The position numbers and the translations under genes were made by a program. Shown piece by piece: positions 7,934-46,676 of a stretch of DNA of 64,000 nt. This DNA is from Sphingorhabdus sp. Alg231-15 (GTDB lineage: Bacteria; Pseudomonadota; Alphaproteobacteria; Sphingomonadales; Sphingomonadaceae): the NCBI RefSeq assembly GCF_900149705.1, contig NZ_LT703001.1:3342001-3406000 (forward strand). Direction: 5' to 3'. The stretch's first letter is position 1, and every line of letters begins with the position of its first letter. Under the pieces are notes generated by a model, which did not search any database, was not told the DNA's origin, and was given only the letters and a program-made list of their open reading frames with translations.

Positions 7934-8012
7934 TCAACGATCCTAACATACTGAAAGCATGTTGTTTTCGGTAGAAATGGTGCTTGACCGCCAGTTTTTA
8001 ATGACTCTTCAA

Positions 8013-8063
8013 TGACACTATTATTACAGTTATGTTGCAAAATACGTCATAAAACTGTAATAA
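8013..8063. promoter_or_regulatory. Paired, oppositely oriented Pho-box-like sites
   Basis: On the plus strand ACGTCATAAAACTGTAA (8044-8060) matches the PhoB box CTGTCATAAAACTGTCA at 14 of 17 positions. On the minus strand CTGTAATAATAGTGTCA (8029-8013) also matches at 14 of 17. In both, the two half-sites are 11 bp apart, one helical turn. The two boxes share a perfect 11-bp inverted repeat, TTATTACAGTT (8021-8031) and AACTGTAATAA (8053-8063). The site lies 27-77 nt before the TPR gene start. PhoB control is inferred from the match alone. Confidence 0.6.
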
Positions 8064-8089
8064 TGGCCCAAAGAAACAGGAGAGTGAGT

Positions 8090-8464
8090 ATGAAAAACGC
8101 AAAGATTATGGCCTTTGCAATAGGCTTGACGATGACGGTGTCGCCTGCACTGGCACAAGCGCAAGAGGGTGAAATTGGCTACGATAGGGGTGCTTTGGCC
8201 TATGATGCTTTGATGGCTGGCGACAATAAGGCGGCTGTTGCAAAGCTGGAAAGCGGAAAGCTCACTGATCCAGCCGTTATGATCAATCTGGGTCAGGCTT
8301 ATGCCCGTACCGGACGCTCGGGTGATGCAGCGAAAATGTTCGTAGCTGCCATGAGCAGCAATCGCAGCTTTGATTTGGTGCTTGCTGATGGCCAGGTTAT
8401 GAATTCTCGCAAGGCGGCTGAGATGGCGTTGAACGATCTGAATGGACGATTGGCTTCTCGCTAA
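8090..8464 (+). CDS. Small exported TPR-like protein
   Basis: This is a 124-residue protein with a Sec signal (cleavage likely after PALAQA, about residue 25). The mature part forms one or two TPR-like helix pairs: YDALMAGDNKAAVAKLESG, then MINLGQAYARTGRSGDAAKMF. The frame is open to 8012, but ATG 8090 has AGGAGA at 8078-8083 and gives a proper signal peptide, so that start is used. It lies behind the strongest Pho-box pair and ahead of the beta-helix lipoprotein and TonB receptor. A periplasmic scaffolding or assembly role in that module is a guess. Confidence 0.8.
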   Translation: MKNAKIMAFAIGLTMTVSPALAQAQEGEIGYDRGALAYDALMAGDNKAAVAKLESGKLTDPAVMINLGQAYARTGRSGDAAKMFVAAMSSNRSFDLVLADGQVMNSRKAAEMALNDLNGRLASR

Positions 8465-8489
8465 ACCGAAATTTCGTGCCATTATAAGC

Positions 8490-8518
8490 AGGCGGTCGTT
8501 CATGCGGCCGCCTTTTTT
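8490..8518 (+). terminator. Rho-independent terminator after the TPR gene
   Basis: A 9-bp stem (AGGCGGTCG with CGGCCGCCT, one wobble) and a 6-nt loop end in six T. It begins 26 nt after the TPR stop and separates that gene from the lipoprotein gene, so the latter needs its own promoter. Confidence 0.85.
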
Positions 8519-8616
8519 GTTTATTAATATTTACACTGCTGCATTTTTGCACTGCAGCATTAAAAGCTAAGCGCTTTGGCGGCTTACCAAGCGACTGCAA
8601 CAATCCTGAAATAATA

Positions 8617-8655
8617 TTGTCTCCAAAGCGTCATGCAAACGGCATCGGCGGGTCA
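8617..8655 (+). promoter_or_regulatory. Candidate Pho-box array upstream of the beta-helix lipoprotein
   Basis: Four half-site-like hexamers occur exactly every 11 bp: TTGTCT (8617), GCGTCA (8628), ACGGCA (8639) and GGGTCA (8650). The first pair matches the 17-bp Pho box at 11 positions, weaker than the upstream pair. It is the only obvious regulatory signal in the 299-bp gap 8465-8763, whose 5' part holds the terminator. Distance to the start codon is about 110-150 nt. Confidence 0.35.
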
Positions 8656-8763
8656 TTTGTCGCGCCTAGTGCCCGAGTCCGAAGGCGATGGGGGCATTTT
8701 GATTCGTTTCCACATCATCTGATCTGAAGTGTTTGAAATCAGTTATCTGCGGAGACTTTATCC

Positions 8764-10287
8764 ATGTTGAATAAGCAAATTCGTTCTGTACTTTTCGCCA
8801 GTGCGGCGGCTGTGGCGGTGACCGCTTGTGGTGCCGATGACGTGGCCTCTCCAGGTGAAGGCACCATAGTTTTGCCTGCGCCGACGCCGACACCTACGCC
8901 AACCCCAACTCCTACGCCGACACCAACCCCGCCTGGCGGCCCTGCTGCTGATTGCCCGGTTGGCATAGCCAATGTCGGAACGATCACAACAGGAAATAGC
9001 CAGGAAGTGCGGAACTGCCAGATATCCGGCGTCATCACTGGAAACCTGACTGTACCTAATCGCGATGGCACGATTTATTCTTTCTCCGGTGCGGTCGAAG
9101 TCGGTGTTGATGGCGGCACCGCCGGGATCATGACAATTGAGCCCGGCGTCGTGATTTTTGGTTCGTCTGGCGGTGACTTCTTGCTGGTCAATCGCGGTTC
9201 GCAGTTATTTGCTGAGGGCACCGCCTCTGAACCGATCATCATGACCTCGCGTCAAAACATATTGGGTACAACCACTGTTAACAGCATTGGTCAGTGGGGC
9301 GGTGTGGTTATCCTCGGCCGCGCGCCAATTTCTGATTGTTCTACAGGCGGCGCGTCCAACCCAGGTGGTTCGCGCACAGATTGTGAAGCAATTGTAGAGG
9401 GCCCAACCAACGCCGTTTATGGTGGCACATTACCTGCCGATTCCAGCGGACGCATGTCTTATGTACAGGTTCGTTATCCTGGTTTTGAGGTTTCGCCTGG
9501 TAACGAGCTCAATGGCATTACCTTAGCCGGTGTTGGCAGCGGAACATTCTTTCAGAATATCCAGGTACATAACAGCTCTGACGATGGCGTCGAATGGTTT
9601 GGTGGCCGGGTAAATGGTAAAAACCTGGCTATGACCGGCATCGATGATGACTCGGTTGACTCCGACTCCGGTTTCCAGGGGAACAACCAGTTTGTTCTGG
9701 TGGTACAGCGCGCAGGTGGCGGTGATCATGTGATGGAAGCAGACTCAAACGGTGATGAAGATGCTGAACCACGCCAACGTCATAGACTCGCCAACGTAAC
9801 CTTTGTGTCTAGTGGTCAAGATCACGTGATCTTGCTGCGCGGCGGCGGAGATTATGAATTCTACAACAGTGTCTTCAACAGTCCCGCAGCTTGCATCGAT
9901 ATCGACAGTGCGACTACCATCCAGGCTGCCGGCGCTGCCGCGGATGAGAATGGTCCTCCGGTATTTGAATCTCTTTTCATGAGCTGTGCGACGGCATTTG
10001 TGGACGATGGTAACATCACCGCGGCACAGATTCAGACCCTCTTCAATGCAGGAACAAATAACACTGAGGCCGGTACATCTACCTTGGCGAATAGCGCGGC
10101 GGCTTTCCCATTCATCAACGGTGCGAACGAAAATGGAGTGACGCCATTTGCGCCGAGTGCAGTGGACAGCTTCTTCGAGGATGTATCCTATATTGGTGCG
10201 GTTCAGGACGCGAATGATACGCGCTTTCAGGATTGGACCTGCGGCCTCTACGCCGACGATTGCGGAACCGCTCCAACAATCGACTAA
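8764..10287 (+). CDS. Secreted beta-helix lipoprotein with (Pro-Thr) linker (ElpS-like candidate T2SS substrate)
   Basis: This is a 507-residue protein. The signal MLNKQIRSVLFASAAAVAVT ends in a lipobox (VTAC, Cys22). A linker of about ten Pro-Thr pairs follows, then a long region with a repetitive right-handed beta-helix look (SGVITGNLTVP, GVVIFGSSGG, VVILGRAP, GVEWFGGRVNGKNLAMTG) and a Cys-containing C-terminus (WTCGLYADDCG). It sits directly upstream of a TonB receptor and gspC. In Caulobacter the phosphate-starvation lipoprotein ElpS lies in the same context and is exported by the T2SS (from memory). Homology to ElpS itself is not established here. Terminator-like hairpin follows. Confidence 0.75.
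   Translation: MLNKQIRSVLFASAAAVAVTACGADDVASPGEGTIVLPAPTPTPTPTPTPTPTPTPPGGPAADCPVGIANVGTITTGNSQEVRNCQISGVITGNLTVPNRDGTIYSFSGAVEVGVDGGTAGIMTIEPGVVIFGSSGGDFLLVNRGSQLFAEGTASEPIIMTSRQNILGTTTVNSIGQWGGVVILGRAPISDCSTGGASNPGGSRTDCEAIVEGPTNAVYGGTLPADSSGRMSYVQVRYPGFEVSPGNELNGITLAGVGSGTFFQNIQVHNSSDDGVEWFGGRVNGKNLAMTGIDDDSVDSDSGFQGNNQFVLVVQRAGGGDHVMEADSNGDEDAEPRQRHRLANVTFVSSGQDHVILLRGGGDYEFYNSVFNSPAACIDIDSATTIQAAGAAADENGPPVFESLFMSCATAFVDDGNITAAQIQTLFNAGTNNTEAGTSTLANSAAAFPFINGANENGVTPFAPSAVDSFFEDVSYIGAVQDANDTRFQDWTCGLYADDCGTAPTID
8877..8937 (+). repeat. Pro-Thr coding tandem repeat
   Basis: Degenerate 6-bp units of the CCNACN type encode about ten consecutive Pro-Thr pairs in the beta-helix lipoprotein. 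Third positions vary (CCG, CCT, CCA, CCC), which shows selection on the protein and not simple DNA slippage. Such linkers hold a domain away from the membrane anchor. Confidence 0.8.
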
Positions 10288-10303
10288 GCAAATTAGTGAT
10301 AAC

Positions 10304-10339
10304 GGGATGGCGGCCATCAGGGGTCGTCATCCCTTTTTT
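10304..10339 (+). terminator. Hairpin with T-tract between the lipoprotein and TonB receptor genes
   Basis: A 9-bp stem (GGGATGGCG with CGTCATCCC, one wobble) and a 12-nt loop are followed by six T, 17 nt after the lipoprotein stop. It could let the secreted lipoprotein be made in excess over the downstream receptor by partial read-through, since no clear promoter separates the genes. Confidence 0.65.
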
Positions 10340-10364
10340 GTACAATGAAAAAGGAAAAATTCCG

Positions 10365-13061
10365 ATGACGACGCGGGCATCTTTGGTCACAAGTCTATTC
10401 GTGAGCACGGCGCTATTTTCGCCTGCTGTTTTGGCGCAAACCATTGCTGAAGATTCGGCTGCACAGCCCGACTCAGCTGATGAAGCTCTAGATGAAGATG
10501 TGGATATTTCCGCTCCTGGGGGTGATTTTAGCGGCGATATTATCGTTCGCGGTAAATTTATACCGAACCCGATCCGGGCAACTTCGGAAGTCGTATCGGT
10601 TTTGGGTGAGGAAGAAATTGCCCGCGCGGCCGACGGCGATATTGCTGGCTCGCTGCAGCGGGTTACCGGTCTGAGTGTTGTGGGTGGTCGTTTTGTCTTC
10701 GTCCGCGGTTTGGGTGAACGGTACTCGTTGGCCTTGCTCAATGGTTTGCCATTACCTTCACCAGAACCTTTGCGCCGTGTAGTTCCACTCGATCTGTTTC
10801 CGACAAGTGTCATCGCTTCGACTGTGGTCCAGAAAAGCTACTCGGTAAACTATCCCGGTGAATTTGGCGGCGGTGTAATCAACCTGACAACCAAAGCTAC
10901 TCCGGATGAGCCATTTCTGAAATTCAGCTTTGGTATCAGCGGCGACAGCGAAACAACGGGGGAACTAGGTTATACATATGATGGCTCAGACTCGGATATT
11001 ATTGGCTTTGATGATGGGACGCGAGACATCCCGAATGGTCTTGGTCAAGCGATAGCGCAAAACGTACCTATTTCCGTTGGCGATAACTTTACCAGCCTTG
11101 ATCTGCAAAATTTTGCTGCAAGTTTGACCAATGCTGAAACGGCATTGATTCAGCGAAACAACGACATTCCGGCGAATTTCTCTGCTGAAGTCACCGGTGG
11201 TACTACAATTGACGTCGGCGACGCTTTTGTCGGTATTATCGCAACAGCTGGCTTTGAAAATAGCTGGCGGACGCGTGGCGGTTTGCAACAAACGTCACAG
11301 GGTATCGTCAATATAGACGGTACCGAAGGTTTGCGGCCAGATCAGAATTTCAATTTCCTGACAACGGAAAATCGTATCATTGTTAATGGCTTACTGGCCT
11401 TATCTGCGGAGATTGGTGAGCATAAATTCCGGTTCACCAACCTCTATATTCACGATACCGTCAAAGATGCATCAATCAAACAGGGTATTGATGCGATCAA
11501 TGTCGATGAAGAAACCTTACTCAATCAAAGCCGTACCAGTTGGTTTGAACGGCAGCTGTTTACAACCCAGTTTGTCGGTGAACTCAAATTTGACGAACTG
11601 TCAGTTGACCTGCGCGGCAGCTATGCCAATTCGAAGCGGGATGCACCGTATCAACGAACGTCGAGCTATGCATTTGATGACCAGTTTGCGAATGACTTTG
11701 TCAACGATCTGACTTCGCCGGGCGAGTCTGCGCGAATCCGGTTCAGTGATCTGAACGATGATGTTTATGGTGCCGGAATTGATATTGGTTACGAAACCGA
11801 TATCGGTGTACCGATCAATTTTACCGTTGGTTACAGCTATTATCTCAACGATCGCGAAGCGCAGCGCCGTGATTTCCGTTTTGTCCCAGCCAATGGACTG
11901 GCAAGCCCGTTCGACCAGCAGCGCATCGATTTTCTGCTGTCAGACATTAACGTCTTCACCCAAGAGATTGAGCTGCGTGAAGTGGCGGCTCAGACCTCGG
12001 TTCCGGCTTATACCGCAGAATTGGAAATCCATGGTGGCTACGGTCAGTTTGATGCCGAGCTGGCCGATGGTCTCCGTTTGAACGTTGGCGTACGTTATGA
12101 AGATGCACAGCAAGAAGTATTGCCAATCACGCTCACCGGCGGTCAGGCTTCGGTCGCAACCAACCTGAATAACGATTATTGGTTGCCCGCTGGGACGCTG
12201 ACATGGAATTTTGCCGATGATATGCAATTCCGTCTTGCTGCTTCCAAAACGGTTGCACGTCCGCAATTTCGTGAATTGGCGCCGCAACAATTTCTCGATC
12301 TTGATACCGACCGGACATTCATTGGTAACCCGCTGCTTGAGGATAGCGAGTTGATCAATGTCGAAGGTCGCTTTGAATATTATATCGGTCGTGGCGAGCG
12401 GATCACGCTGGCAGGCTTCTATAAAGATATCGACAATCCGATTGAGAATGTCGCCTTTGTTCAGGGCGGTGGAACGCTGTTTACCGGTTTCTCCAATGCG
12501 CCCAAGGCCCAGTTGTACGGCGCGGAGGTTGAGCTGGTAAAATATATCCCTCTCTATGACCTGTTCGGTGGTGACTTCTTTGAAGACCGCCGCCTGCTCT
12601 TGGCAGCGAATTACACATATACCAAATCGGAGATCAAAGTTGCTGATGGTGATACAGCTATAAACCCGGTGACGCTGCAGCCTACGTCGGCATTGAACCT
12701 GTTCGCAGATGGTGATCGCCTCACTGGTCAATCAACCCATGTCGCTAATCTGCAATTTGGAATGGAAGCCGAAGAAGGCTTGTCACAGCAGACGATTTTG
12801 CTGACCTATAACAGCCCACGTGTCACCGCACGTGGGCCGCAGGATCAACCCGATCTTATTGAGCGGACGGGTTGGCAGATTGATTTCGTGATGCGGGAAC
12901 AACTAAAAATTGCGGGTCAGGAATTTGAATTGAAATTTGAAGCCCGCAATCTGCTGGGCACGGATTACCGCGAGTCACAGACACTGAACGACACCCGGAT
13001 AATCAATAATGGCTATGATGTTGGAACGCGGCTTTCGATGAGTATCGGGATCAATTTTTGA
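10365..13061 (+). CDS. TonB-dependent outer-membrane receptor
   Basis: This is an 898-residue receptor with a signal peptide (cleavage after AVLA, about residue 24), an acidic spacer, a TonB-box-like segment (GDIIVRG), a plug domain (SLQRVTGLSVVGGRFVFVRG, FGGGVINLTTK) and a long beta-barrel ending in the outer-membrane signature SMSIGINF. It imports a large substrate using the proton-motive force through TonB. The ATG at 10365 follows AAGGAA and gives a clean signal, so the longer frame from 10233 is rejected. Placement between a secreted lipoprotein and T2SS genes, under Pho-box-like sites, suggests a phosphorus-containing ligand (inference). Confidence 0.93.
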   Translation: MTTRASLVTSLFVSTALFSPAVLAQTIAEDSAAQPDSADEALDEDVDISAPGGDFSGDIIVRGKFIPNPIRATSEVVSVLGEEEIARAADGDIAGSLQRVTGLSVVGGRFVFVRGLGERYSLALLNGLPLPSPEPLRRVVPLDLFPTSVIASTVVQKSYSVNYPGEFGGGVINLTTKATPDEPFLKFSFGISGDSETTGELGYTYDGSDSDIIGFDDGTRDIPNGLGQAIAQNVPISVGDNFTSLDLQNFAASLTNAETALIQRNNDIPANFSAEVTGGTTIDVGDAFVGIIATAGFENSWRTRGGLQQTSQGIVNIDGTEGLRPDQNFNFLTTENRIIVNGLLALSAEIGEHKFRFTNLYIHDTVKDASIKQGIDAINVDEETLLNQSRTSWFERQLFTTQFVGELKFDELSVDLRGSYANSKRDAPYQRTSSYAFDDQFANDFVNDLTSPGESARIRFSDLNDDVYGAGIDIGYETDIGVPINFTVGYSYYLNDREAQRRDFRFVPANGLASPFDQQRIDFLLSDINVFTQEIELREVAAQTSVPAYTAELEIHGGYGQFDAELADGLRLNVGVRYEDAQQEVLPITLTGGQASVATNLNNDYWLPAGTLTWNFADDMQFRLAASKTVARPQFRELAPQQFLDLDTDRTFIGNPLLEDSELINVEGRFEYYIGRGERITLAGFYKDIDNPIENVAFVQGGGTLFTGFSNAPKAQLYGAEVELVKYIPLYDLFGGDFFEDRRLLLAANYTYTKSEIKVADGDTAINPVTLQPTSALNLFADGDRLTGQSTHVANLQFGMEAEEGLSQQTILLTYNSPRVTARGPQDQPDLIERTGWQIDFVMREQLKIAGQEFELKFEARNLLGTDYRESQTLNDTRIINNGYDVGTRLSMSIGINF

Positions 13062-13097
13062 GTCTCCCCGCGCATGGCGGCGAGCGTGAATTGAATT

Positions 13098-13125
13098 CTG
13101 TAACTTTTGTGTCATCTATGAGTCG
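13098..13125 (+). promoter_or_regulatory. Pho-box-like site upstream of gspC
   Basis: Three half-site-like hexamers fall in exact 11-bp register: CTGTAA (13098), GTGTCA (13109) and GAGTCG (13120). The first two have the strongly conserved TGT core; the A/T spacer differs from the E. coli consensus. It lies 56-83 nt before the gspC start, in the only non-coding gap of the secretion operon region. PhoB control is inferred. Confidence 0.45.
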
Positions 13126-13180
13126 CAGGATGGTCACCAAACCGTTATAGCTCCTCTAGGGAAGCAGAGTACGGGGATTC

Positions 13181-14011
13181 GTGGTTATTCAATCTTCTAA
13201 CCAAATTTGGGGAAAAGGCCGGTGGTTATCCAGATCAGGTCTATATCCTCTTTTGTTCGGTTTGTTGGCGATCATACTGCTCGTTCAAGCGGTGAGACTG
13301 ATCTGGTTGGTAGCGACACCGCTAGGCCCAATAGGAGATTGGCAGTCGCGCGAAGTGGACGTCCTTTCACCATCATCGCGCTTGTCACTATTTAGCAGTT
13401 TTGATCCATTTTATCGGTCCGGACCCACTGCCACGGCTGGCGTGGTTACATCGCTTCAACTCACATTATTTGGTGTTCGCATGAATGAGGGATCAGGATT
13501 GGGATCGGCGATATTGGCGGGGCCAGATGGTGTGCAAGAGAGCTTTGCTGTTGGCGATGAAATAATGTCAGGGGTCAAATTGGACGCGGTGCAATTTGAT
13601 CATGTGGTGATTGACCGGGGCGGCACGAAGGAAAGCCTTTATCTCGACCAGTCGGTGCCAGCGAAAACCGTTGGTGGCGATGTTGCAAGCCAGGTGGAAC
13701 CAACGCCTGAGCGCACTATTGGTGACCCGCCGATTACGGCAGCGATTCAGAACGCCGTCGATCTGGCACCGCGCAACGTCGATGGAAAGGTGACCGGGAT
13801 TGTGGTTTCGCCGCGCGGCGATGGCGCCATGTTTCGTGCGGCAGGCTTTGCCGATGGAGACATTATCGTTTCGATTAACGGACAGCCAGTCTCTTCAACC
13901 CGCGACATTACCGCATTGAAGAGTCAGATTATACCGGGGGCTCGGGTGTCAGTTGAAGTCGAGCGCGGCGCGGATACTGTTCCCATAGCTATTAATTTGG
14001 GGGCACAGTGA
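13181..14011 (+). CDS. gspC: Type II secretion inner-membrane protein GspC
   Basis: This is a 276-residue bitopic protein linking the inner-membrane platform to the secretin. One transmembrane helix lies at about residues 20-46, followed by the periplasmic homology region (LQLTLFGVRMNE). A C-terminal PDZ domain at about 195-275 includes MFRAAGFADGDIIVSINGQPV. The GTG start at 13181 has only a modest GGGGA ahead of it. It is first in the operon and overlaps gspD. The PDZ domain is thought to take part in substrate selection in the family. Confidence 0.9.
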   Translation: MVIQSSNQIWGKGRWLSRSGLYPLLFGLLAIILLVQAVRLIWLVATPLGPIGDWQSREVDVLSPSSRLSLFSSFDPFYRSGPTATAGVVTSLQLTLFGVRMNEGSGLGSAILAGPDGVQESFAVGDEIMSGVKLDAVQFDHVVIDRGGTKESLYLDQSVPAKTVGGDVASQVEPTPERTIGDPPITAAIQNAVDLAPRNVDGKVTGIVVSPRGDGAMFRAAGFADGDIIVSINGQPVSSTRDITALKSQIIPGARVSVEVERGADTVPIAINLGAQ

Positions 14012-16191
14012 TGAGTAGTATTCTAACGAAAATGGCAGCGCGATGGACGATATCCCTTGCGATATTAGGACCAATGATTGTGGTTCCTGCATCTGCCCAA
14101 CATAGCCTGAATGTACGCGATGCTGATATCCGTGCCTTTGTTCAGGATGCGGCGCGTGTAACCGGTCGCACGTTCATTGTTGATAGCCGGGTTCAAGGCA
14201 AAGTTTCGGTTGTGACTGACCGACCTTTGTCCCGTTCTGAATATTTTGAGATTTTCCTGTCCACCTTAAGGGCCAATAATCTGGTTGCAATTCCAACGAC
14301 CAACGGCGCCTATCGTATTCAACCCGCTGATGGCGCAGCAACCCAGCCAACGCGGATTGGCACACGCCAATCGGAGGCCAATCAATTCGTCACTGAAGTC
14401 GTTCGGCTGAAATCAATTGAAGCAACAGCAGCGTTGGAAACCCTGCGGCCACTGATCAGCAAGCAAGGGGCGATTACCGCCAATCGCAATGCAAACAGTC
14501 TGGTAATTGTCGATTATGCCGATAACATCCGGCGGGTCCGACAATTGGTGCGTCAGATTGACAAGGATAGTGCAGCGTCAACCATCGTGAACCTTAAAAA
14601 TGCCGGTGCAAGAGAGATTGCGTCATCGCTGCAGTCTTTGGCTCAGCAAGGCGGGAATGGCAAAGTTGCTCCGGTAACGGTTGTCGCGATTGACAGCAGT
14701 AACAGTATAGCATTGCGGGGTGACCCGGGGGCCACAGCAAAATTTGCTCAGATGGCGCGAGAGCTTGATGAGCGGGCTGAATTGGGCACGGAAATCCGCG
14801 TCCATCAACTGGACTATGCCAATGCCGAACAATTGCTGCCGGTGATCGAGCAGCTAATGGGGCAGGGTGTTTCGAGCTCCAAACCAACTTCTGTTGCCCC
14901 GCCGTCGGGAACTAATGGCACGACTCTTCCGGCAACACCGGTTTCAACTGGATCCAGCTCTGGCAGTGGCATCGCTCGTCATGGCCCCGCTGTCGTAACG
15001 CGTTATGAAGGCACAAATGCGATAATTGTTGCAGCCAATCCTGATGTCCAACGGATGATCGGTGAATTGATCCGTCAGCTCGACACCAGACAGGAACAGG
15101 TCTCAGTAGAAGCGATTATCGTGGAAATCTCTGACTCATTGGCTCGTGAATTGGGTGTCCAATTTCTAATTGGCGGCGAGGACGCGCCATTTGCGGTTAC
15201 AAATTTCTCCAATGCATCACCCAATATTGTCGACCTTGCTGGCGGCTTGTTGGCCGATGAATTTGATACCACAACGACGACCACGACCGATACCGCGACG
15301 ACCACAACAACAAACAGCGCGGTCGGGGATAAGCTGCTCGAAAATGCGGCGGACGCGATATTGGGTTCGCGCGGCGCCTTTACCGGTTTTGCGACCACGC
15401 TGGGCGGCGACACCATATTGGGTGCGATCATCAATGCCGTACAACGCGACTCTGACTCCAACTTGCTTTCCACGCCATCTCTGACTGTGAATAACAATCT
15501 GAAGGGCAGCATCTTATTTGGTCAGGAGATACCAGTTTCAACCGGTGAGGCATTGTCCGATAATTTTGACAATGCGTTTCGGACCATACAACGGCAAAAT
15601 GTCGGTATCGAATTGGAAGTTACTCCGCAGATTAACGCAGGAGATGAAGTGCGATTGGATCTGCGTCAGGAAGTCAGCTCGATAGCCGGGCCGGTCTCGA
15701 ATGATTTTAACGAGCTGATCATCAATAAGCGCGAAATTAAAACCACAGTGACCGTAGGGGATGGAGAGATTATCGCGCTGGGCGGATTGCTCGACGATAA
15801 CGAGCGCCGCACGATTGAGAAAATACCGTTCCTGGGTGACATCCCGCTGATTGGCGAACTGTTCAAGTCGCGCGGAAAATCTCGGGTTAAGACCAATTTG
15901 ATGGTGTTCATTCGACCAAAGATATTGCGAAATCGTGAGGATGCCCGTGCATTTTCCGCCCGTCGATACGGTTATATAAGAAATCGGCAGCTAAGCCGTG
16001 ACCCAGAACTTGAACCGTCCATTGATGTTCTGGTGCGCGACTATATGGGAACTGTCCCTCCTGCTGTTGCAACACGGCCCGGCGATCAGATTATCTATGC
16101 GCCCGGCGGTGTTGCTGAGCCTCAAAACAGCGGAACGGTTCAGCCTGTTCCGGTTGCCCCCAGCAAGCCGATTCCGGAGAGAGAGGACTGA
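14011..16191 (+). CDS. gspD: Type II secretion outer-membrane secretin GspD
   Basis: This is a 726-residue secretin that forms the outer-membrane gate. It has a signal peptide (cleavage after PASA, near residue 29) and N0 domain (LNVRDADIRAFVQDAARVTG). N1-N3 repeats follow (VVRLKSIEATAALETLRP; IRVHQLDYANAEQLLPVI; RTEGxNAI-like segment), then the C-terminal secretin domain with FGQEIPVSTGEALSDNF and VGIELEVTPQIN. A Thr-rich insertion lies at residues 420-434. The ATG at 14011 overlaps the gspC stop (TGATG); a GTG one codon earlier is the alternative. No pilotin gene is seen nearby. Confidence 0.95.
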   Translation: MSSILTKMAARWTISLAILGPMIVVPASAQHSLNVRDADIRAFVQDAARVTGRTFIVDSRVQGKVSVVTDRPLSRSEYFEIFLSTLRANNLVAIPTTNGAYRIQPADGAATQPTRIGTRQSEANQFVTEVVRLKSIEATAALETLRPLISKQGAITANRNANSLVIVDYADNIRRVRQLVRQIDKDSAASTIVNLKNAGAREIASSLQSLAQQGGNGKVAPVTVVAIDSSNSIALRGDPGATAKFAQMARELDERAELGTEIRVHQLDYANAEQLLPVIEQLMGQGVSSSKPTSVAPPSGTNGTTLPATPVSTGSSSGSGIARHGPAVVTRYEGTNAIIVAANPDVQRMIGELIRQLDTRQEQVSVEAIIVEISDSLARELGVQFLIGGEDAPFAVTNFSNASPNIVDLAGGLLADEFDTTTTTTTDTATTTTTNSAVGDKLLENAADAILGSRGAFTGFATTLGGDTILGAIINAVQRDSDSNLLSTPSLTVNNNLKGSILFGQEIPVSTGEALSDNFDNAFRTIQRQNVGIELEVTPQINAGDEVRLDLRQEVSSIAGPVSNDFNELIINKREIKTTVTVGDGEIIALGGLLDDNERRTIEKIPFLGDIPLIGELFKSRGKSRVKTNLMVFIRPKILRNREDARAFSARRYGYIRNRQLSRDPELEPSIDVLVRDYMGTVPPAVATRPGDQIIYAPGGVAEPQNSGTVQPVPVAPSKPIPERED

Positions 16192-17759
16192 TGAAAATCG
16201 CGAAAGGAACAGAAACCGACAGTTCCGGCGATAATGAAAAGCCTGTTGACGAACAGCTCGCGGCATCTGCTCCTTTTGTCGATGTTCCTTATGCGTTTGC
16301 GCGTGATCATGGCGTGCTCTTGATGCGCACCGACGGTGAGCGCCTGTCCGTCGCTATGCGGGAAGGCGCCGATCCTCAGGCGTTGCTCGAATTGCGCCGT
16401 TATCTGGCGATGCCATTTGATGTTGATCTGGTGTCACCCGAGGCGTTTGAAAAAATTCTGTCCGAACATTATGCAATGGATGGCAGCGCGGCCGCCATGG
16501 CCGATGACATGAACCTGAGCAATGATGCGCTGGACGACATTGCTGGTGATATTCCTAGTGCGGAGGACTTGCTCGATAGCGCCGATGATGCGCCGACCAT
16601 CCGGTTGATCAACGGGATTATCGCCGAGGCGGCCAGGCAGGGTGCCTCCGATATCCATATCGAACCCTATGAAACCGGCCTTGTGGTGCGTATGCGCGTT
16701 GATGGCGTATTGCAGGAAAAACTGCGCATGCCGCCACATGTCGCTTCGGTTATCGTAAACCGTATCAAGGTCATGGCGCGGCTGGATATTGCCGAGCGCC
16801 GTATTCCGCAAGATGGGCGTATCAGTCTCACTCTTGGTGGGAAACTATTGGATGTTCGTGTTTCTACATTACCCAACCGTGCGAATGAACGCGTGGTTAT
16901 GCGCATTTTGGATAAGGAAAGTGCAGGCATATCGCTGGACCTGCTGGGTATGTCTGAAACGACCCATGAGATTCTCACCGAGGCGTTGGTCGAACCCAAC
17001 GGTATCATATTGGTTACCGGTCCAACCGGTTCTGGTAAGACAACCACCCTATATGCGGGCTTGAAACAGCTAAATGATGGCAGCCGCAATATCTTGACCG
17101 TCGAAGATCCAGTGGAATATGCAATTGAGGGCATTGGCCAGACGCAGGTCAATGCCAAAGTCGGTCTGACGTTCGCTGCCGGCTTGCGTGCGATTTTGCG
17201 ACAGGATCCGGATGTGGTGATGGTTGGTGAGATCCGCGACCGGGAGACTGCGGAGATTGCCGTGCAAGCCTCGCTCACAGGGCATTTGGTGCTGTCCACC
17301 GTACACACCAACGATGCTGTTGGCGCTATCACGCGCATGCGCGATATGAAAGTTGAACCGTTTCTGCTCGCATCGACCCTGCGGGCTGTTATTGCCCAAC
17401 GATTGGTCCGAAAGCTGTGCCCGCATTGCCGCGTTCCGATACAGGCGGATGGCAGTCTCGCGTCTCTGTTGGGATTTGACAACGGAACGGTCGTTTATCG
17501 GGAAGTGGGATGTGAGGAATGCAATCAAACCGGCTTCCAAGGCCGAATTGGTGTTTTTGAGGCGATCCGGGTCGATGAGACAATCCGCAAATTAATCAAC
17601 GATGGTGGTGATGAAGCGCGCATCGCGGCACACGCTTTCTTGAAGAAGCCCAATCTTGGTTCAGCTGCGCGCGCTCTGGTTCGCGAAGGCTTGACGACAG
17701 CCGAAGAAGGTATTCGCATCTCGCGCCGCGAAGTGTTGGACGAACAGGTCGATGCCTGA
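16191..17759 (+). CDS. gspE: Type II secretion ATPase GspE
   Basis: This is a 522-residue cytoplasmic ATPase that powers pseudopilus assembly. An N1E/N2E-type N-terminal region (to about 120) precedes the core. Walker A GPTGSGKTTT lies near residue 277, with Walker B at DPDVVMVGEIRD and the His box LSTVHTNDA. The tetracysteine zinc motif has Cys410, Cys413, Cys441 and Cys444. Start overlaps the gspD stop by 1 bp and its end overlaps gspF by 8 bp, so the operon is tightly coupled. Confidence 0.95.
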   Translation: MKIAKGTETDSSGDNEKPVDEQLAASAPFVDVPYAFARDHGVLLMRTDGERLSVAMREGADPQALLELRRYLAMPFDVDLVSPEAFEKILSEHYAMDGSAAAMADDMNLSNDALDDIAGDIPSAEDLLDSADDAPTIRLINGIIAEAARQGASDIHIEPYETGLVVRMRVDGVLQEKLRMPPHVASVIVNRIKVMARLDIAERRIPQDGRISLTLGGKLLDVRVSTLPNRANERVVMRILDKESAGISLDLLGMSETTHEILTEALVEPNGIILVTGPTGSGKTTTLYAGLKQLNDGSRNILTVEDPVEYAIEGIGQTQVNAKVGLTFAAGLRAILRQDPDVVMVGEIRDRETAEIAVQASLTGHLVLSTVHTNDAVGAITRMRDMKVEPFLLASTLRAVIAQRLVRKLCPHCRVPIQADGSLASLLGFDNGTVVYREVGCEECNQTGFQGRIGVFEAIRVDETIRKLINDGGDEARIAAHAFLKKPNLGSAARALVREGLTTAEEGIRISRREVLDEQVDA

Positions 17760-18966
17760 TTTTTCTTACACCGCAATTGATCCTAAAGGTCGGGAAAAAA
17801 CCGGGCATCTGGCTGCTGATAGCAATGATGCGGCGCGAACCAAGCTGACGGAACGCAGTCTTTATGTTGTTAAAGTGGAAGCCGCGCAAAGCTCAAAGAC
17901 AAGACCTGCGCGCGGGCTGTTTGGCCGCAAAAAACTGGGATCCAAAGAGCTGACTCTTTTCACTCGGCAGCTTTCTTCGCTTGTTCAGGTTAGTCCCTTG
18001 GAAGAAGCTTTGCGGACCATAGGAAATCAGAATGAAAAGGCGCATGTGCGGGATCGGATAGGTGCTGTTCATAGCGGCGTCATAGAAGGACAACGCCTGG
18101 CCGAAGCCATGCGCCGTGAGCCGGCTAGTTTTCCGCCACTTTATCGCGCAATGATCTCAGCCGGCGAAACCTCCGGCACATTGCCCGATATCACGGAACG
18201 CCTCGCGGCTCTGTTAGAACGGCAGGCCGAGATGCGCGGTAAACTGATCAGCGCACTTGCCTATCCGATCGTTCTGGCACTGGTCGCGATATTGGTTGTC
18301 GCCTTGCTGATGATTGCGGTAGTTCCCAAAGTCGTCGAGCAATTTGATGATGTGAATCAACAGCTTCCCTTCGTAACACGGCTTGTGATCGGCATTTCCG
18401 ATTTTTTGGCCAATTGGTGGGGCGCCATCTTAGGAGTTTTGTTTGTTCTCTCTGTTGCTGGCTGGCGGGCAATGAAGGAACCGAAGGTGAGATATTGGGT
18501 CGATAGTTTCCTGTTGCGACTACCATTTATCGGTCGCTTGCTGCGCGATTTGAATGCCGCACGACTTGCGAGAACTTTGTCGACCATGGTGGCCAGTCGC
18601 CTGCCGATTCTAGAAGGATTACGCTTGACCACCAACACGATTGGCAATGCCGTGCTTCGGAAAGCCTGTGAGGATATGGTTGAAGCCATTAGAGGCGGTG
18701 GCAGCCTGTCAAAAGCGCTCAAGGATACAGGAGTTTTTCCACCGATGCTGGTCTATCTGACGGCGAGTGGTGAGGCATCTGGACAGCTAGATGATATGCT
18801 GGCGCGGGCTGCGGACTATCTGGAGCGCGAATTTGATAATTTCAGTTCCACTGCTTTATCACTGTTAGAACCGCTCATCATAGTTTTGCTGGGCGGTGTT
18901 GTTGCTGTGGTAATTTTGGCTATATTGCTGCCGATATTGCAACTTCAAAATCTTGCCGGGTTATAG
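17752..18966 (+). CDS. gspF: Type II secretion inner-membrane platform protein GspF
   Basis: This is a 404-residue polytopic protein with two cytoplasmic GspF domains (about 68-190 and 270-392) and three transmembrane helices, near 168-190, 220-237 and 370-395. The duplicated motif is visible as ISAGETSGTLPDI in copy one and TASGEASGQLDDML in copy two. It anchors the ATPase and pseudopilin assembly at the inner membrane. It overlaps gspE by 8 bp. Confidence 0.95.
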   Translation: MPDFSYTAIDPKGREKTGHLAADSNDAARTKLTERSLYVVKVEAAQSSKTRPARGLFGRKKLGSKELTLFTRQLSSLVQVSPLEEALRTIGNQNEKAHVRDRIGAVHSGVIEGQRLAEAMRREPASFPPLYRAMISAGETSGTLPDITERLAALLERQAEMRGKLISALAYPIVLALVAILVVALLMIAVVPKVVEQFDDVNQQLPFVTRLVIGISDFLANWWGAILGVLFVLSVAGWRAMKEPKVRYWVDSFLLRLPFIGRLLRDLNAARLARTLSTMVASRLPILEGLRLTTNTIGNAVLRKACEDMVEAIRGGGSLSKALKDTGVFPPMLVYLTASGEASGQLDDMLARAADYLEREFDNFSSTALSLLEPLIIVLLGGVVAVVILAILLPILQLQNLAGL

Positions 18967-18987
18967 ACCGGGATTGATAGGAACATT

Positions 18988-19473
18988 ATGTTTACCACTC
19001 CATTGAACTTCAGAACCGTTGTTACGAGGCGGTCAGAGCGGAACGACCGCAAAAAACCGGATTCCAATGGCTTTACGCTGGTGGAGCTGATGGTCGTGAT
19101 CTTCATTCTGGGTCTCTTGACCACGGTGGTCGTGATCAATGTCCTGCCAAGTCAGGACCGGGCCATGGTTGAAAAAGCACGAGCAGATATTGCGACCCTT
19201 GGGCAGGCCCTTGAAATGTACCGGCTCGATAATCTTGCCTATCCGGCCTCGGCTGATGGTTTGGAGGCCCTCACTAGTCCTCCAGCATCGCTACCAAGTT
19301 CGGCACGTTATCGACAGGGTGGCTATATCAAGAAGCTTCCGGAGGATCCGTGGGGGCGGCCCTATCAATATGACAATCCTGGACGTAACGGCCCGGGCTT
19401 TGATCTTTATTCGCTGGGTGCAGACGGTTCTCCGGGCGGTGAAGAAGAAGATGCTGATATCTACGCAGAATAG
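18988..19473 (+). CDS. gspG: Type II secretion major pseudopilin GspG
   Basis: This is a 161-residue prepilin. The leader is 28 residues (basic: RRSERNDRKK) ending in Gly, followed by FTLVELMVVIFILGLL with Glu5 of the mature protein, the prepilin-peptidase signature. The globular part has the GspG calcium-loop features (DPWGRPYQYDNPG, FDLYSLGADG). The leader is long for this family; ATG 18988 with AGGAA is the only ATG available ahead of the cleavage site. No prepilin peptidase gene is in the window. Next gene is gspL, not gspH. Confidence 0.95.
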   Translation: MFTTPLNFRTVVTRRSERNDRKKPDSNGFTLVELMVVIFILGLLTTVVVINVLPSQDRAMVEKARADIATLGQALEMYRLDNLAYPASADGLEALTSPPASLPSSARYRQGGYIKKLPEDPWGRPYQYDNPGRNGPGFDLYSLGADGSPGGEEEDADIYAE

Positions 19474-19559
19474 TCAATTGGCCAAAGGTGACAGCGCGAC
19501 CAAAATTGGCTAGCTAACGGTTGTAATAGCAAAGAGATTTCTATCGAGTCGGGGAGGTC

Positions 19560-19625
19560 ATGTTGGAACAAGGTCTGTTACTGCCTCTATTCAATCATCC
19601 ATTAAACGGAGCCCAGATGGGCTAA
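19560..19625 (+). CDS. 21-residue ORF coupled to gspL
   Basis: A strong ribosome-binding site (GGGGAGG at 19551-19557) precedes an ATG that opens a 21-codon frame (MLEQGLLLPLFNHPLNGAQM, then Gly). Its TAA overlaps the gspL ATG (TAATG). It occupies the place where gspH-gspK usually sit. It may be a leader peptide that loads ribosomes onto gspL, or a relic of deletion; it could also be chance. No homology recognised. Confidence 0.35.
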   Translation: MLEQGLLLPLFNHPLNGAQMG

Positions 19626-20752
19626 TGCCGACATCACAGCTTTTCATAACCGTTTTTCCGATCGAAGAGGGGCAGGACCTGCATTGGTGGTCCTTTGCAG
19701 ACGGTGTTCTGGAAGCCAAAGGATATGACACCGACCCATTGCTTGCCGCCGGTCTCAAATTACCATCCATGGAAGTTGAGCCCGTTTTTCATGTTGCGCT
19801 AATGCCTTCTGCACTCGCCGTTGTGCGCTGGCATCAGCCGATTGAGGACCTCACTGAACAGCAGATATTGGCTGCGGTGCGCTTGGCGGCACAGGATAAT
19901 AGTTTCGATGTGGAAAATCTGCATGTTGTCGCGATAGTCGATGATAGCAGCCTGCCGGTAACGGTATCGGTTAGTAACGAAATCATGGCAAGCGGACTCA
20001 TGCGGCTCAAGGCGATTGGAATTGATCCCGACGCGATTATTCCTGCGGGCTGGCCAATAAGGGCGGCCTCAGACGGGTTTTCCGAGGCAGACCTCGGCTT
20101 TGAAACCCTCTTGCGGGGCGAGCAGCTTATTGCTCCCAATGAGCCTTCTTTGCGGGCGCATCTTGTCGGCGACCGGAAAGTTACCGTTTTACCGGAAGCG
20201 TCAGTGGATCTGGACCTTGCAAATGCGGCTGACGGAAGTTTGTTGAATCTGCGTGTTGATCCGTTTTCGAAGAATATCGAGCGGTATATGACCAGCCCAC
20301 AAAGAAGGATGTTAGGCATTCTGGCGGCCGCAGCGCTTATTGTTTCTCTGCTGATCCCGGCGGTACAACTAATCAAATATCATTGGGCAGCGGGTGAAGC
20401 GGACGAAGCCGCTCTGGCAGTGGCAGAGCCGGTTATTGGGATGGTCGATAGTGTCGAGGAAGCCGATCGGTTGTTAAACGAACGACTGATCAGCGAAAAT
20501 CGCGGTAATATAGCATTTTCCGTCCCTGTTTCGGCGCTGTTTTCTGCGATCCAGCAGACTCAGGGTGTTTCGATTGAGCGGCTAAGCTATCGCAAGGATG
20601 GAACTGTTTTTGCCGGTCTGTCGGCGGTCCGCAATGAAGATATGAATCCAGCGTTGATCGCCATTCAAAACGCGGGATTCGTAATCACGGCGACACCGCG
20701 GACAGATGCCACAGGAGTAGCCAAGGCTGATATCACGGTGCGAGCGCCATGA
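19625..20752 (+). CDS. gspL: Type II secretion protein GspL
   Basis: This is a 375-residue bitopic inner-membrane protein that recruits the GspE ATPase. A cytoplasmic actin-like domain comes first (WWSFADGVLEAKG, then LRAHLVGDRKVTVLP). One transmembrane helix at about residues 228-250 (LGILAAAALIVSLLIPAV) leads to a ferredoxin-like periplasmic domain (GVSIERLSYRKDGTVFAGL). It overlaps gspM by 4 bp. Its own start lacks a well-spaced ribosome site and is coupled to the 21-codon ORF. Confidence 0.88.
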   Translation: MPTSQLFITVFPIEEGQDLHWWSFADGVLEAKGYDTDPLLAAGLKLPSMEVEPVFHVALMPSALAVVRWHQPIEDLTEQQILAAVRLAAQDNSFDVENLHVVAIVDDSSLPVTVSVSNEIMASGLMRLKAIGIDPDAIIPAGWPIRAASDGFSEADLGFETLLRGEQLIAPNEPSLRAHLVGDRKVTVLPEASVDLDLANAADGSLLNLRVDPFSKNIERYMTSPQRRMLGILAAAALIVSLLIPAVQLIKYHWAAGEADEAALAVAEPVIGMVDSVEEADRLLNERLISENRGNIAFSVPVSALFSAIQQTQGVSIERLSYRKDGTVFAGLSAVRNEDMNPALIAIQNAGFVITATPRTDATGVAKADITVRAP

Positions 20753-21231
20753 TATCATCGGCCAAAGCCTGGTTTTACGCACTAAGCCAGCGTGAGAAGA
20801 TACTGATCGCGATTATGGGCATTCTCACCGCGCTGGTGGTCGGTTATTATGCGTTTGTAGGGCCGTTCATCGGGGCTTTTGAAACTGCTGAAAAGCGCTA
20901 TCAGGAAGCTGTCGATAGCCGGGTACAGATTGAAACCAAAGTAGCGGCTTTAACAGCGCCAACAAACCAGACCGCGAATCCGGTATCCGGTCCGCTAGAA
21001 GTGTTCATTAGCCAGCATGCCGGAGAGGCAGGGTTCGCGATCGGACGTTTGGATCCGCAATCCGATGGTTCGGTTAAGTTGTCCATTGACGCTGCCAAGC
21101 CTAGGGCTTTGTTCGGCTGGCTAGCTTCGATGGAAAACCGAGCGATATCGATTGATGAGCTTGCGGTTAATCCCGGTGACAACGATACCGTTATCGCAAC
21201 AATGACATTGCGATCCGTTAAGCCGAATTGA
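20749..21231 (+). CDS. gspM: Type II secretion protein GspM
   Basis: This is a 160-residue bitopic protein of the inner-membrane platform. A short cytoplasmic segment (YALSQREKILIAIM) runs into a transmembrane helix at about residues 17-37. A small periplasmic ferredoxin-like domain follows (FIGAFETAEKRYQEAVDSR; LFGWLASMENRAISIDEL). It partners GspL. It is the last gene of the operon, with no gspN or gspO after it, and it converges on the desaturase gene with a 2-bp gap. Confidence 0.88.
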   Translation: MISSAKAWFYALSQREKILIAIMGILTALVVGYYAFVGPFIGAFETAEKRYQEAVDSRVQIETKVAALTAPTNQTANPVSGPLEVFISQHAGEAGFAIGRLDPQSDGSVKLSIDAAKPRALFGWLASMENRAISIDELAVNPGDNDTVIATMTLRSVKPN

Positions 21232-45725: not shown

Positions 45726-46502
45726 TTAGAAAGATACGCCCAACGTGAACACAACAGCACTGTCCGTGAAACTATTGACTGATGGCGCATCGGTATCGGT
45801 ATAGGCAACGCTCGCAGTCAGGTTTTTGGTAATGGCCCAGTCGGCACCAAGGGTCCAATCGATGTAGTTATCATCACCAAACACACCAACGGGGTTGCCC
45901 AGTGAACCATCATTGATACCAATATTCGCATTGAGCGAGATGGGCGTGTTCGGAATGCCGCCGGAAACGCCGGTGTAGATATAAACATTGTCGCTGTCAC
46001 CCAGGCTGGCTTGAGACCATGCGTATGCGATACCGGTGGTGAGTTCTACAGGTCCAACTGTTGTTGAGACCGAAGCATAGGGTTCAAAATAGTCGCTGGG
46101 TCCTGCGGCTCCGCCTTCACCATTGGGGTAGACATAATAGAGCAGGCCAACATCAAGAGTGAGGCCATCGGTGACGTCTCCGGACCAACCACCATAGAGG
46201 TCAAGCTCGGTGTGACCGAATGTCGGGCTGTCTTCGATAGAAGAGGCCCAGGTCCCGATGTAAAAACCGCTTTCATGGGTGACATCAATGCCGCCTTGAA
46301 CTGCGATATCGCCGTCCGAGAAGGACAAGCCACGGAATCGATAATCTGATGTGATGGCGGCATTGCCGGAAACTGTAATTCCGCTGCCTTCCACTTCTTG
46401 AGCGAGGGCGGGAGCTGCCGTTGTAGCCAGCAGAATAGCTGAAAGACCGATAATCCCCGATTTGGCTTTATAGCCGAGAGTAGTTTTTGTGGACGTGCGC
46501 AT
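45726..46502 (-). CDS. TorF-family putative outer-membrane porin
   Basis: This is a 258-residue beta-barrel protein of the TIGR02001/Gcw-chp family. The signal peptide is residues 1-33 or so (cleavage after PALAQ). It has SGNAAITSDYRFRGLSFSDG, which opens the family, alternating strands (SGFYIGTWASSIEDSPTFGH), and ends VVFTLGVSF with terminal Phe. ATG 46502 has AAAGGGA upstream; the frame continues to 46640 but without a start signal. Role is transport across the outer membrane; substrate unknown. Confidence 0.88.
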   Translation of the reverse strand: MRTSTKTTLGYKAKSGIIGLSAILLATTAAPALAQEVEGSGITVSGNAAITSDYRFRGLSFSDGDIAVQGGIDVTHESGFYIGTWASSIEDSPTFGHTELDLYGGWSGDVTDGLTLDVGLLYYVYPNGEGGAAGPSDYFEPYASVSTTVGPVELTTGIAYAWSQASLGDSDNVYIYTGVSGGIPNTPISLNANIGINDGSLGNPVGVFGDDNYIDWTLGADWAITKNLTASVAYTDTDAPSVNSFTDSAVVFTLGVSF

Positions 46503-46676
46503 GAAAATCCCTTTCTGGTTGATGCGTATCGCCCCTCCTGGAATTTGTCCTGGTTGTCTTTTTATTGCGCCAGCAAAGCCAACGGCAGACAATCTCAAAA
46601 CATGCAGGAAAAAACTGCAACATATTGCTGCGCTGCACAACAGAAAAATGTCAGTAAGGATGACATATTTTGATAG

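Follow-up and report, generated by a model that had tools for sequence, protein, structure and literature searches.

The gene set described here is probably the sphingomonad form of a PhoB-controlled module built around the lipoprotein ElpS, with proposed capture at the cell surface and uptake by a receptor. It lies in a 64-kb stretch of DNA from Sphingorhabdus sp. Alg231-15, which we call the window. The core of the set is already known, mostly from Caulobacter; the window holds a variant with a small conserved TPR partner. What is new is that the TPR gene co-occurs with ElpS, that the type II secretion system (T2SS) is an optional part of the module, and that T2SS genes are split over five loci in this genome.

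All the genes are on the plus strand. An ElpS-type lipoprotein gene (8764..10287; 507 amino acids, with a lipobox that ends at C22) is followed directly by a gene for a TonB-dependent receptor (10365..13061; 898 amino acids, plug and barrel, PF07715 and PF00593) and then by gspC (13181..14011). As the first-pass annotation had proposed, this matches the order of elpS, TonB receptor, and gsp genes in Caulobacter (Le Blastier 2010, PMC2996285). That order was published in 2010 for Caulobacter and a sphingomonad, and the same paper names Sphingomonas alaskensis, Xanthomonas campestris, and Hyphomonas neptunium (PMC2996285). Like the window, C. crescentus has a lipobox lipoprotein (elpS, cc0170) ahead of a TonB receptor (cc0171) and gspC-N, with a link to phosphate starvation; however, gspC to gspN form one cluster there and five loci here. 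Two terminator-like hairpins, also on the plus strand, lie downstream of the TPR gene (8490..8513; 10 pairs, 7 of them GC, then a T tract) and between the lipoprotein and receptor genes (10304..10333; 12 pairs, 8 of them GC, then TTTTTT). The latter has the longest stem in our scan, which found 21 terminator-like sites in the region versus 14.6 (sd 4.7) in shuffles.

The type II secretion operon of the first-pass annotation is present in the window but incomplete: gspH, I, J, K, N, and O are missing from it. After gspC (PF11356 and PDZ_2 above cut-off, and the NCBIfam GspC model below its cut-off) come the secretin gspD (14008..16191; TIGR02517, 542.6 bits vs. a cut-off of 351), the ATPase gspE (16191..17759; TIGR02533 above cut-off), gspF (17752..18966; TIGR02120 above cut-off), and the major pseudopilin gspG (18988..19473; TIGR01710 above cut-off). 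A divergent gspL (19625..20752; Pfam E 0.0051 and TIGR01709 E 1.4e-8, both below cut-off) precedes gspM (20749..21231; PF04612, 1.7e-24). Elsewhere in the genome we found gspH and gspI (C1:2377928-2378829), gspJ and gspK (C1:168726-170413), gspN (C1:1406986), and a prepilin-peptidase family gene (PF06750, C1:894500). Across these five loci, the genome encodes a T2SS core from C to M plus a prepilin peptidase, with a weak match for L. A “minimal T2SS” without minor pseudopilins, with gspG directly before gspL, was considered and rejected: H, I, J, and K are at two other loci.

We scanned both strands of the window with an 18-bp Pho matrix of two half-sites (the E. coli consensus). The four best sites were 8012(-), 13098(+), 8044(+), and 8001(-), with scores of 20.9, 17.2, 16.5, and 15.1, or 22.9, 19.9, 18.2, and 16.4 with a G+C-rich background. 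With that background, the maxima of 100 simulated 64-kb sequences averaged 16.4 (95th percentile 19.6), so only 8012(-) and 13098(+) stand out singly. Chance sites at the level of the fourth site arose 0.64 times per simulated window, and two sites outside the three promoters, at 46637 and 39998, score near it. The lipoprotein promoter is weak by this matrix (10.2), yet four half-sites follow one another there in 11-bp phase. With a 40-bp model of four half-sites, which was chosen after the arrays had been seen, the window's seven best sites (28.3 to 11.4; the next scores 8.4) all lie in the three promoters, and this bears out the earlier claim that Pho-box-like sites precede three transcription units. 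The top-ranked array is in the TPR promoter (8001..8040, minus strand, 28.3) and holds a perfect match to the strict Pho pattern. A further box there (8044..8061, plus strand; 16.5, third in the window by the 18-bp matrix) adjoins a -10-like AATAAT at 8059-8064; the promoter-like scan behind this had a total of 9, which is not above shuffles (13.2). The lipoprotein array (8595..8634, plus strand) has weak half-sites in phase and scores 17.5, equal third; the array upstream of gspC (13098..13137, plus strand) also scores 17.5, ranks second with the 18-bp matrix, and has a perfect pattern match. In the 18-bp scan, the receptor gene has no Pho box of its own.

The 3.62-Mb genome matches the strict pattern perfectly at just four sites, and three of these precede a pstS-like gene, the TPR gene, and gspC. 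The pstS-like gene (PF12849) adjoins a histidine kinase gene, and its promoter scores 22.6 by the four-half-site model. Sharing the strict pattern with a pstS-like gene of the same genome points to membership of TPR and gspC in the PhoB regulon. As a caution, with at most one mismatch, the genome has 42 sites for the Pho pattern and 21 for a reversed control pattern. Binding-site predictions support Pho-type control of the TPR, lipoprotein-receptor, and gspC units. Among the main gsp operon and the dispersed gspH and gspJ, only the main operon has a strong array; gspJ has a weaker box, and gspH has none. In Caulobacter, ElpS is surface-exposed and induced by phosphate starvation (PMC2996285), and the PhoB regulon includes the T2SS and TonB receptors (PMC11208175), which parallels the Pho array on the main gsp operon here. 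On the other hand, the Caulobacter receptor gene looked constitutive by RT-PCR (PMC2996285). The T2SS was called constitutive in the same paper, which is at odds with its place in the PhoB regulon (PMC11208175).

To see how far this arrangement extends, we considered the best 80 of 550 named relatives, and we counted a Pho box if it reached p ≤ 0.05 against a Markov null. In 78 of the 80 loci, the receptor gene comes directly after ElpS, and the other two contigs stop there. Excluding five loci with under 300 bp of upstream sequence, 53 of 75 ElpS upstream regions had a box and 22 fell short. For gspC, 15 of 27 upstream regions had a box and 12 did not reach the threshold, while the upstream region of the receptor, our negative control, had one in just 2 of 78. 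The genomes in these counts are kin and so are not independent. More distantly, Flavobacterium has ElpS-like lipoproteins beside TonB transporters that are induced by phosphate depletion (PMC8115612). Lipoproteins FI and FII of its PUSIII and PUSIV are 31-36% identical to the Caulobacter protein and adjoin a TonB-dependent transporter, but these systems belong to Bacteroidetes and have other neighbor genes, and the available part of the paper does not mention a TPR protein (PMC8115612).

The TPR gene (8090..8464) encodes 124 amino acids with a signal peptide, judged by eye, that ends in ALAQ. We prefer the start at 8090 because of this signal peptide and because relatives begin at the same point; an alternative ATG at 8012 would place the Pho array within the gene. 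Pfam TPR matches are sub-threshold (best E 0.0015), and as modelled by AF2 (mean pLDDT 87.4) the protein is a TPR fold, with two TPR helix pairs, a beta-hairpin, and a long C-terminal helix. Among solved structures, only generic TPRs resembled this fold. A link to T3SS chaperones was rejected (NCBIfam E 0.014, far below cut-off).

We searched for this protein in 149 genomes of the family and 289 alphaproteobacterial genomes, both of which are samples with some incomplete genomes. In the family, 87 genomes had a match at 1e-5, and we kept 73 at E ≤ 1e-8. Of the 14 that were dropped, 7 lack ElpS and match in frames of 367-1182 amino acids, so these look like other TPR proteins. All 73 genomes that were kept carry ElpS. 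The TPR gene lies within 1.5 kb upstream of ElpS in 57 of them (46 divergent and 11 on the same strand) and within 20 kb in 6 more; in one genome (G076), the frame is broken by a stop codon. Conversely, 32 of the 105 ElpS genomes have no TPR match at E ≤ 1e-8, so the protein is not obligatory. A profile re-read of 10 kb in each of five genomes that have ElpS but neither TPR nor GspD found no TPR. At E ≤ 1e-10, 7 of the 289 alphaproteobacterial genomes matched, but 4 are from the window's own family and 3 matches are inside frames of 310, 432, and 1419 amino acids. A Kordiimonas contig (L179) has what may be a distant relative upstream of its ElpS gene, and six named Caulobacteraceae loci (L112, L135, L143, L144, L154, and L162; C. 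crescentus is not among them) have no TPR match. Where the TPR gene is directly upstream of ElpS, 27 of 27 loci have a Pho box (p ≤ 0.05), but divergent genes share this region with ElpS, so these are not independent of the ElpS count. Where it is not, a box still precedes the TPR gene in 15 of 15 loci (two at 0.050), and in 10 of the 15 this is the best site of the whole locus. (The 15 are 12 of the 16 non-adjacent TPR genes, without the four weakest, G057, G021, G100, and G006, plus three Sphingobium loci. Null windows may include the promoter, which keeps the p-values from falling below a few percent.) This protein was named in no title or abstract start in our literature searches, which mostly did not cover subscription journals. 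Overall, it seems to be a real member of the set that was apparently undescribed, as first suggested.

The T2SS is another matter. At least three gsp genes are present in 29 of the 80 named loci (some shortened by contig ends; best 80 of 550), and GspD was not detected in 49 of the 105 ElpS genomes of the family or in 44 of the 73 TPR genomes. (A curated cut-off for GspD was used only for the 59 genomes without a match in the first search.) Bacteroidetes are not known to have a T2SS. The expectation that the genes co-occur in relatives held nearly always for lipoprotein and receptor and often for TPR, but only about half the time for the T2SS. Perhaps the true unit is T2SS-free and consists of the lipoprotein, the TonB receptor, and the TPR protein as a dedicated secreted adaptor. 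We consider this less likely than not. The conserved tether after the lipobox (Cys-Gly-Ala-acidic, ending in Ser-Pro-Gly) would mark a T2SS-independent route to the surface, and the Sphingomonadaceae envelope would gain a new part in the TPR protein. This protein might even be a periplasmic carrier of lipoprotein, because four genomes (G050, G099, G005, and G085; the matches are 44 to 578 bp apart) have its gene tail to tail with gspN.

The first-pass annotation had the T2SS export the lipoprotein to the surface. If so, the lipoprotein would cross the outer membrane as pullulanase or InvL does, with GspN as its carrier. The gsp operon does adjoin the lipoprotein locus here, as in the 29 named loci above, and the genome encodes GspN. 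Also, the stretch CGADD after the lipobox is similar to the sorting signal (Gly/Ser or Asn/Asp) reported for T2SS lipoproteins (PMC12802150). But the motif is also found where no gsp genes adjoin, and many ElpS genomes have no detected GspD. Moreover, Caulobacter ElpS reaches the surface independently of the T2SS, and only its release is T2SS-dependent (PMC2996285). We regard the claim as unsupported and a T2SS substrate as unlikely.

The lipoprotein itself has both the ElpS homology and the lipobox, with homologues in Caulobacteraceae, Xanthomonas, and Sphingomonadales (an alignment of 19 sequences, the window's and 18 relatives; Cc0170 is not included by name), and it has no Pfam family match. 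Its AF2 model (pLDDT 81.4, pTM 0.82) is strand-rich, and we read it as a beta-helix. An acidic ladder (D273, D274, E277, D295, D299, and E325) is invariant in 71 of 71 sequences, which are the window's and those of at least 380 amino acids from 70 of the 80 named loci (best 80 of 550). No solved relative was found by sequence at E ≤ 1 or in the PDB by Foldseek at E ≤ 1e-3; the best Foldseek matches were tailspikes, chondroitinase B, an alpha-glucanase, and AlgG (TM about 0.2-0.35). For the receptor, solved relatives were limited to weak matches to the PQQ receptor. SusC/SusD-type pairs likewise encode a lipoprotein and a TonB-dependent transporter together, but this lipoprotein is modelled as a beta-helix and has no SusD match in Pfam, and the receptor has Pfam matches to plug and barrel alone. 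Might the lipoprotein instead assist or activate secreted phosphatases, with a receptor that only senses or imports inorganic phosphate complexes and no polymer processed? In Caulobacter, overproduction of ElpS led to more extracellular phosphatase activity, while refolded and immunoprecipitated ElpS had none, and deleting elpS left phosphatase activity unchanged (PMC2996285); the results for refolded ElpS and the deletion also weigh against the module proposed here. However, the invariant ladder and the fact that a receptor is nearly always paired with it suggest that the lipoprotein has a ligand of its own, which makes an accessory role quite improbable.

Finally, the TPR protein could belong to the T2SS itself (pilotin-like, an assembly factor, or a GspN partner) and not work with the lipoprotein-receptor pair, but we consider this very unlikely. 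In its favor, among loci with the TPR gene elsewhere than directly upstream of ElpS, five (L196-L200) have it at one end of the gsp operon, in four of these next to gspN as noted, and two relatives (L200 and L201) look by eye like lipoproteins, as pilotins are. Against it, GspD often goes undetected in TPR genomes, and ElpS is missing from none of the 73.

Returning to the PhoB-controlled module, we propose that when phosphate is exhausted, PhoB would bind the arrays of 11-bp-phased half-sites and activate three units: the TPR gene, the lipoprotein and receptor genes, and the main T2SS operon. The terminator between the lipoprotein and receptor genes would lower output of the receptor relative to the lipoprotein. 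Anchored by its lipid and a Pro/Thr linker, the lipoprotein may sit on the outside of the outer membrane, where the beta-helix, with its ladder, would bind or cut a phosphorus-bearing polymer or ester, and the adjacent receptor would import the product. The TPR protein, which may be lipid-anchored in some relatives, could be a periplasmic adaptor or carrier that serves the lipoprotein and its receptor. Where present, the T2SS would act in parallel by exporting phosphatases and a protease that releases the lipoprotein.

These results correct the picture of ElpS as a lipoprotein tied to the T2SS. What is conserved, under Pho-type control, is a core of lipoprotein and receptor; the T2SS comes and goes. 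The phosphate response of this large family, whose members live in soil and water, also gains a small envelope protein. Should the lipoprotein turn out to bind a phosphorylated polymer or act on it as an enzyme, that would account for how these bacteria harvest organic phosphorus at the cell surface.

Every gene of the module (8013-21231) is on the + strand of the window. The first encodes a small secreted protein (8090-8464; signal peptide by eye), which we call TPR. Its Pfam TPR matches are all sub-threshold, and its predicted structure (mean pLDDT 87.4) has two TPR helix pairs, then a beta-hairpin and a long C-terminal helix. It is followed by an ElpS-type lipoprotein (8764-10287), a TonB-dependent receptor (10365-13061), and gspC, D, E, F, G, L and M of the type II secretion system (T2SS; 13181-21231), with gspL directly after gspG. 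A search of Pfam found no family for the lipoprotein. Its model is rich in strands (pLDDT 81.4, pTM 0.82), and the best Foldseek matches are mostly parallel beta-helix proteins, none of them significant.

The Pho sites in the window exceed chance expectation. With a two-half-site matrix, the four best sites lie in the TPR and gspC promoters, and the top two scored 22.9 and 19.9, as compared to a mean maximum of 16.4 (95th percentile 19.6) in 100 simulated windows. The fourth-best match is within chance (0.64 expected per simulated window). The lipoprotein promoter is weak by this matrix, yet it has four half-sites in phase, and with a 40-bp model of four half-sites, which was applied after these arrays were seen, the window's top seven sites are all inside the TPR, lipoprotein and gspC promoters. 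Genome-wide, four sites match a strict pattern perfectly. One precedes TPR and another gspC; a third overlaps the end of a gene for a histidine kinase and lies about 100 bp upstream of a pstS-like gene; the fourth is inside an SDR-like gene (identified by eye) and is probably chance. Allowing up to one mismatch gave 42 genome sites, versus 21 with a reversed control pattern, so single weak sites carry little meaning. Another Pho-box-like site in the window (46637-46654, -), which scores 13.6 (16.3 with another background), sits where a gene of the Gcw_chp family begins (45726-46640, -); this gene is possibly Pho-controlled as well.

Among the best 80 of 550 named relatives, 53 of the 75 loci that could be used showed a significant box upstream of ElpS, and 15/27 had one before gspC. 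The stretch preceding the receptor, which is internal to the unit, had a box in 2/78. In the first 19 relative stretches, the corresponding counts at p ≤ 0.05 were 11/19, 5/10 and 0/19, with 6/6 for TPR. Strong boxes before ElpS are often retained without neighboring gsp genes (as judged from the contig neighborhood), for example in Erythrobacter, Qipengyuania and Novosphingobium. In a genome from the same genus (G089), the gspC operon is about 100 kb from ElpS and keeps its box (13.5). These boxes, the sites above chance, and the perfect sites before TPR and gspC support the first-pass annotation's proposal that the module is probably under Pho control.

That annotation also counted TPR as part of the set, and this is supported. 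Of 149 family genomes, 73 have TPR by a profile built from seven sequences (E ≤ 10^-8); every one of the 73 is among the 105 genomes with ElpS, and none of the 44 ElpS-less genomes has TPR. TPR sits upstream of ElpS at a distance of 1.5 kb or less in 57 of these 73 genomes (46 divergent, 11 in the same orientation); a further 6 have it no farther than 20 kb away. Three loci from Sphingobium carry it downstream of the receptor, on the opposite strand. Where TPR is not directly upstream of ElpS, a Pho box lies within 300 bp in 15/15 examined loci (p ≤ 0.05 for every one); for 10 of these it is the top site of the entire retrieved locus. TPR changes position yet keeps both ElpS's company and its Pho box, which argues for a functional link. 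In four genomes (G050, G099, G005 and G085; loci L197-L200), profile-match coordinates place TPR tail to tail with gspN, a T2SS component that has been described as a lipoprotein carrier (PMC12802150). A literature search (titles and abstract openings) turned up no such TPR protein by name. A match on a Kordiimonas contig (L179:8306-8731; E = 6 · 10^-10), about 1 kb upstream of ElpS, is possibly a distant relative. In two scanned loci that lack gsp genes, a VirB4-type T4SS ATPase gene lies beyond TPR (L152:5447-9175, accompanied by an SLT transglycosylase, and L157:5975-8422); frames of similar size occur in L141, L142, L147, L163, L168 and L176.

The T2SS is scattered, and it is often missing. 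In the Alg231-15 genome its genes are spread over five loci: the window operon, gspH and gspI (C1:2377928-2378829) and gspJ and gspK (C1:168726-170413), which were Pfam-confirmed, gspN (C1:1406986), and the prepilin peptidase (C1:894500). A weaker candidate box (12.9) precedes gspJ; none was seen upstream of gspH in this genome. In G089, gspD is about 107 kb from the ElpS-receptor locus, gspI and gspN are apart from the main operon, and a lone second gspE (L033:12606-14162) follows ElpS and the receptor; its product shares 89% identity with the GspE of the window across the portion that matched. Partial dispersal is also seen in G095 (gspI or gspN apart) and G001 (gspN apart). In whole-genome searches, a protein search (E ≤ 10^-60) found GspD in 46 of the 105 ElpS genomes, and a second search with a curated cut-off recovered it from 10 of the 59 left over; neither search found it in the remaining 49, or in 44 of the 73 TPR genomes. 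Co-occurrence in relatives is nearly universal for lipoprotein and receptor, frequent for TPR with ElpS (73/105), and seen in about half of the ElpS genomes for the secretion system. The idea that this system exports the lipoprotein is not supported, as Caulobacter ElpS reportedly reaches the surface without the T2SS; its release is T2SS-dependent, probably via a secreted protease (PMC2996285).

An acidic ladder (D273, D274, E277, D295, D299, E325), its residues spaced roughly one helix turn apart, runs through the lipoprotein and is present in 71/71 ElpS sequences (10 of the best 80 of 550 named loci were too short and were excluded); six cysteines are nearly invariant. These features may mark a metal or catalytic site. 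After the lipobox, a Cys-Gly-Ala-acidic tether leads to Ser-Pro-Gly (residues 22-31; window 8827-8856); it occurs both with and without neighboring gsp genes and is a candidate surface-sorting signal. The lipoprotein might capture or cut a phosphorus-bearing ligand, which the receptor would then import. One terminator-like hairpin lies between these two genes, which fits more output of lipoprotein than of receptor; another follows TPR. One Novosphingobium has, close to its ElpS locus, a metallophosphoesterase and glycosyltransferase pair (L157:16079-18168) that resembles the PlcP-Agt lipid-remodelling pair and has a Pho-box-like site (16.7) immediately upstream.

A T2SS is not a known feature of Bacteroidetes. 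In Flavobacterium, phosphate depletion strongly induces ElpS-like lipoproteins adjoining TonB transporters (PMC8115612), so the lipoprotein-transporter pair seems to function without a T2SS in another phylum. In Caulobacter, ElpS is produced under phosphate starvation, and the same study terms the T2SS constitutive (PMC2996285); this contrasts with the 2024 PhoB regulon, which contains the T2SS and several TonB receptors (PMC11208175). Overall, the window carries a variant of the ElpS module, with the core shared, a conserved TPR partner added, and the T2SS scattered.
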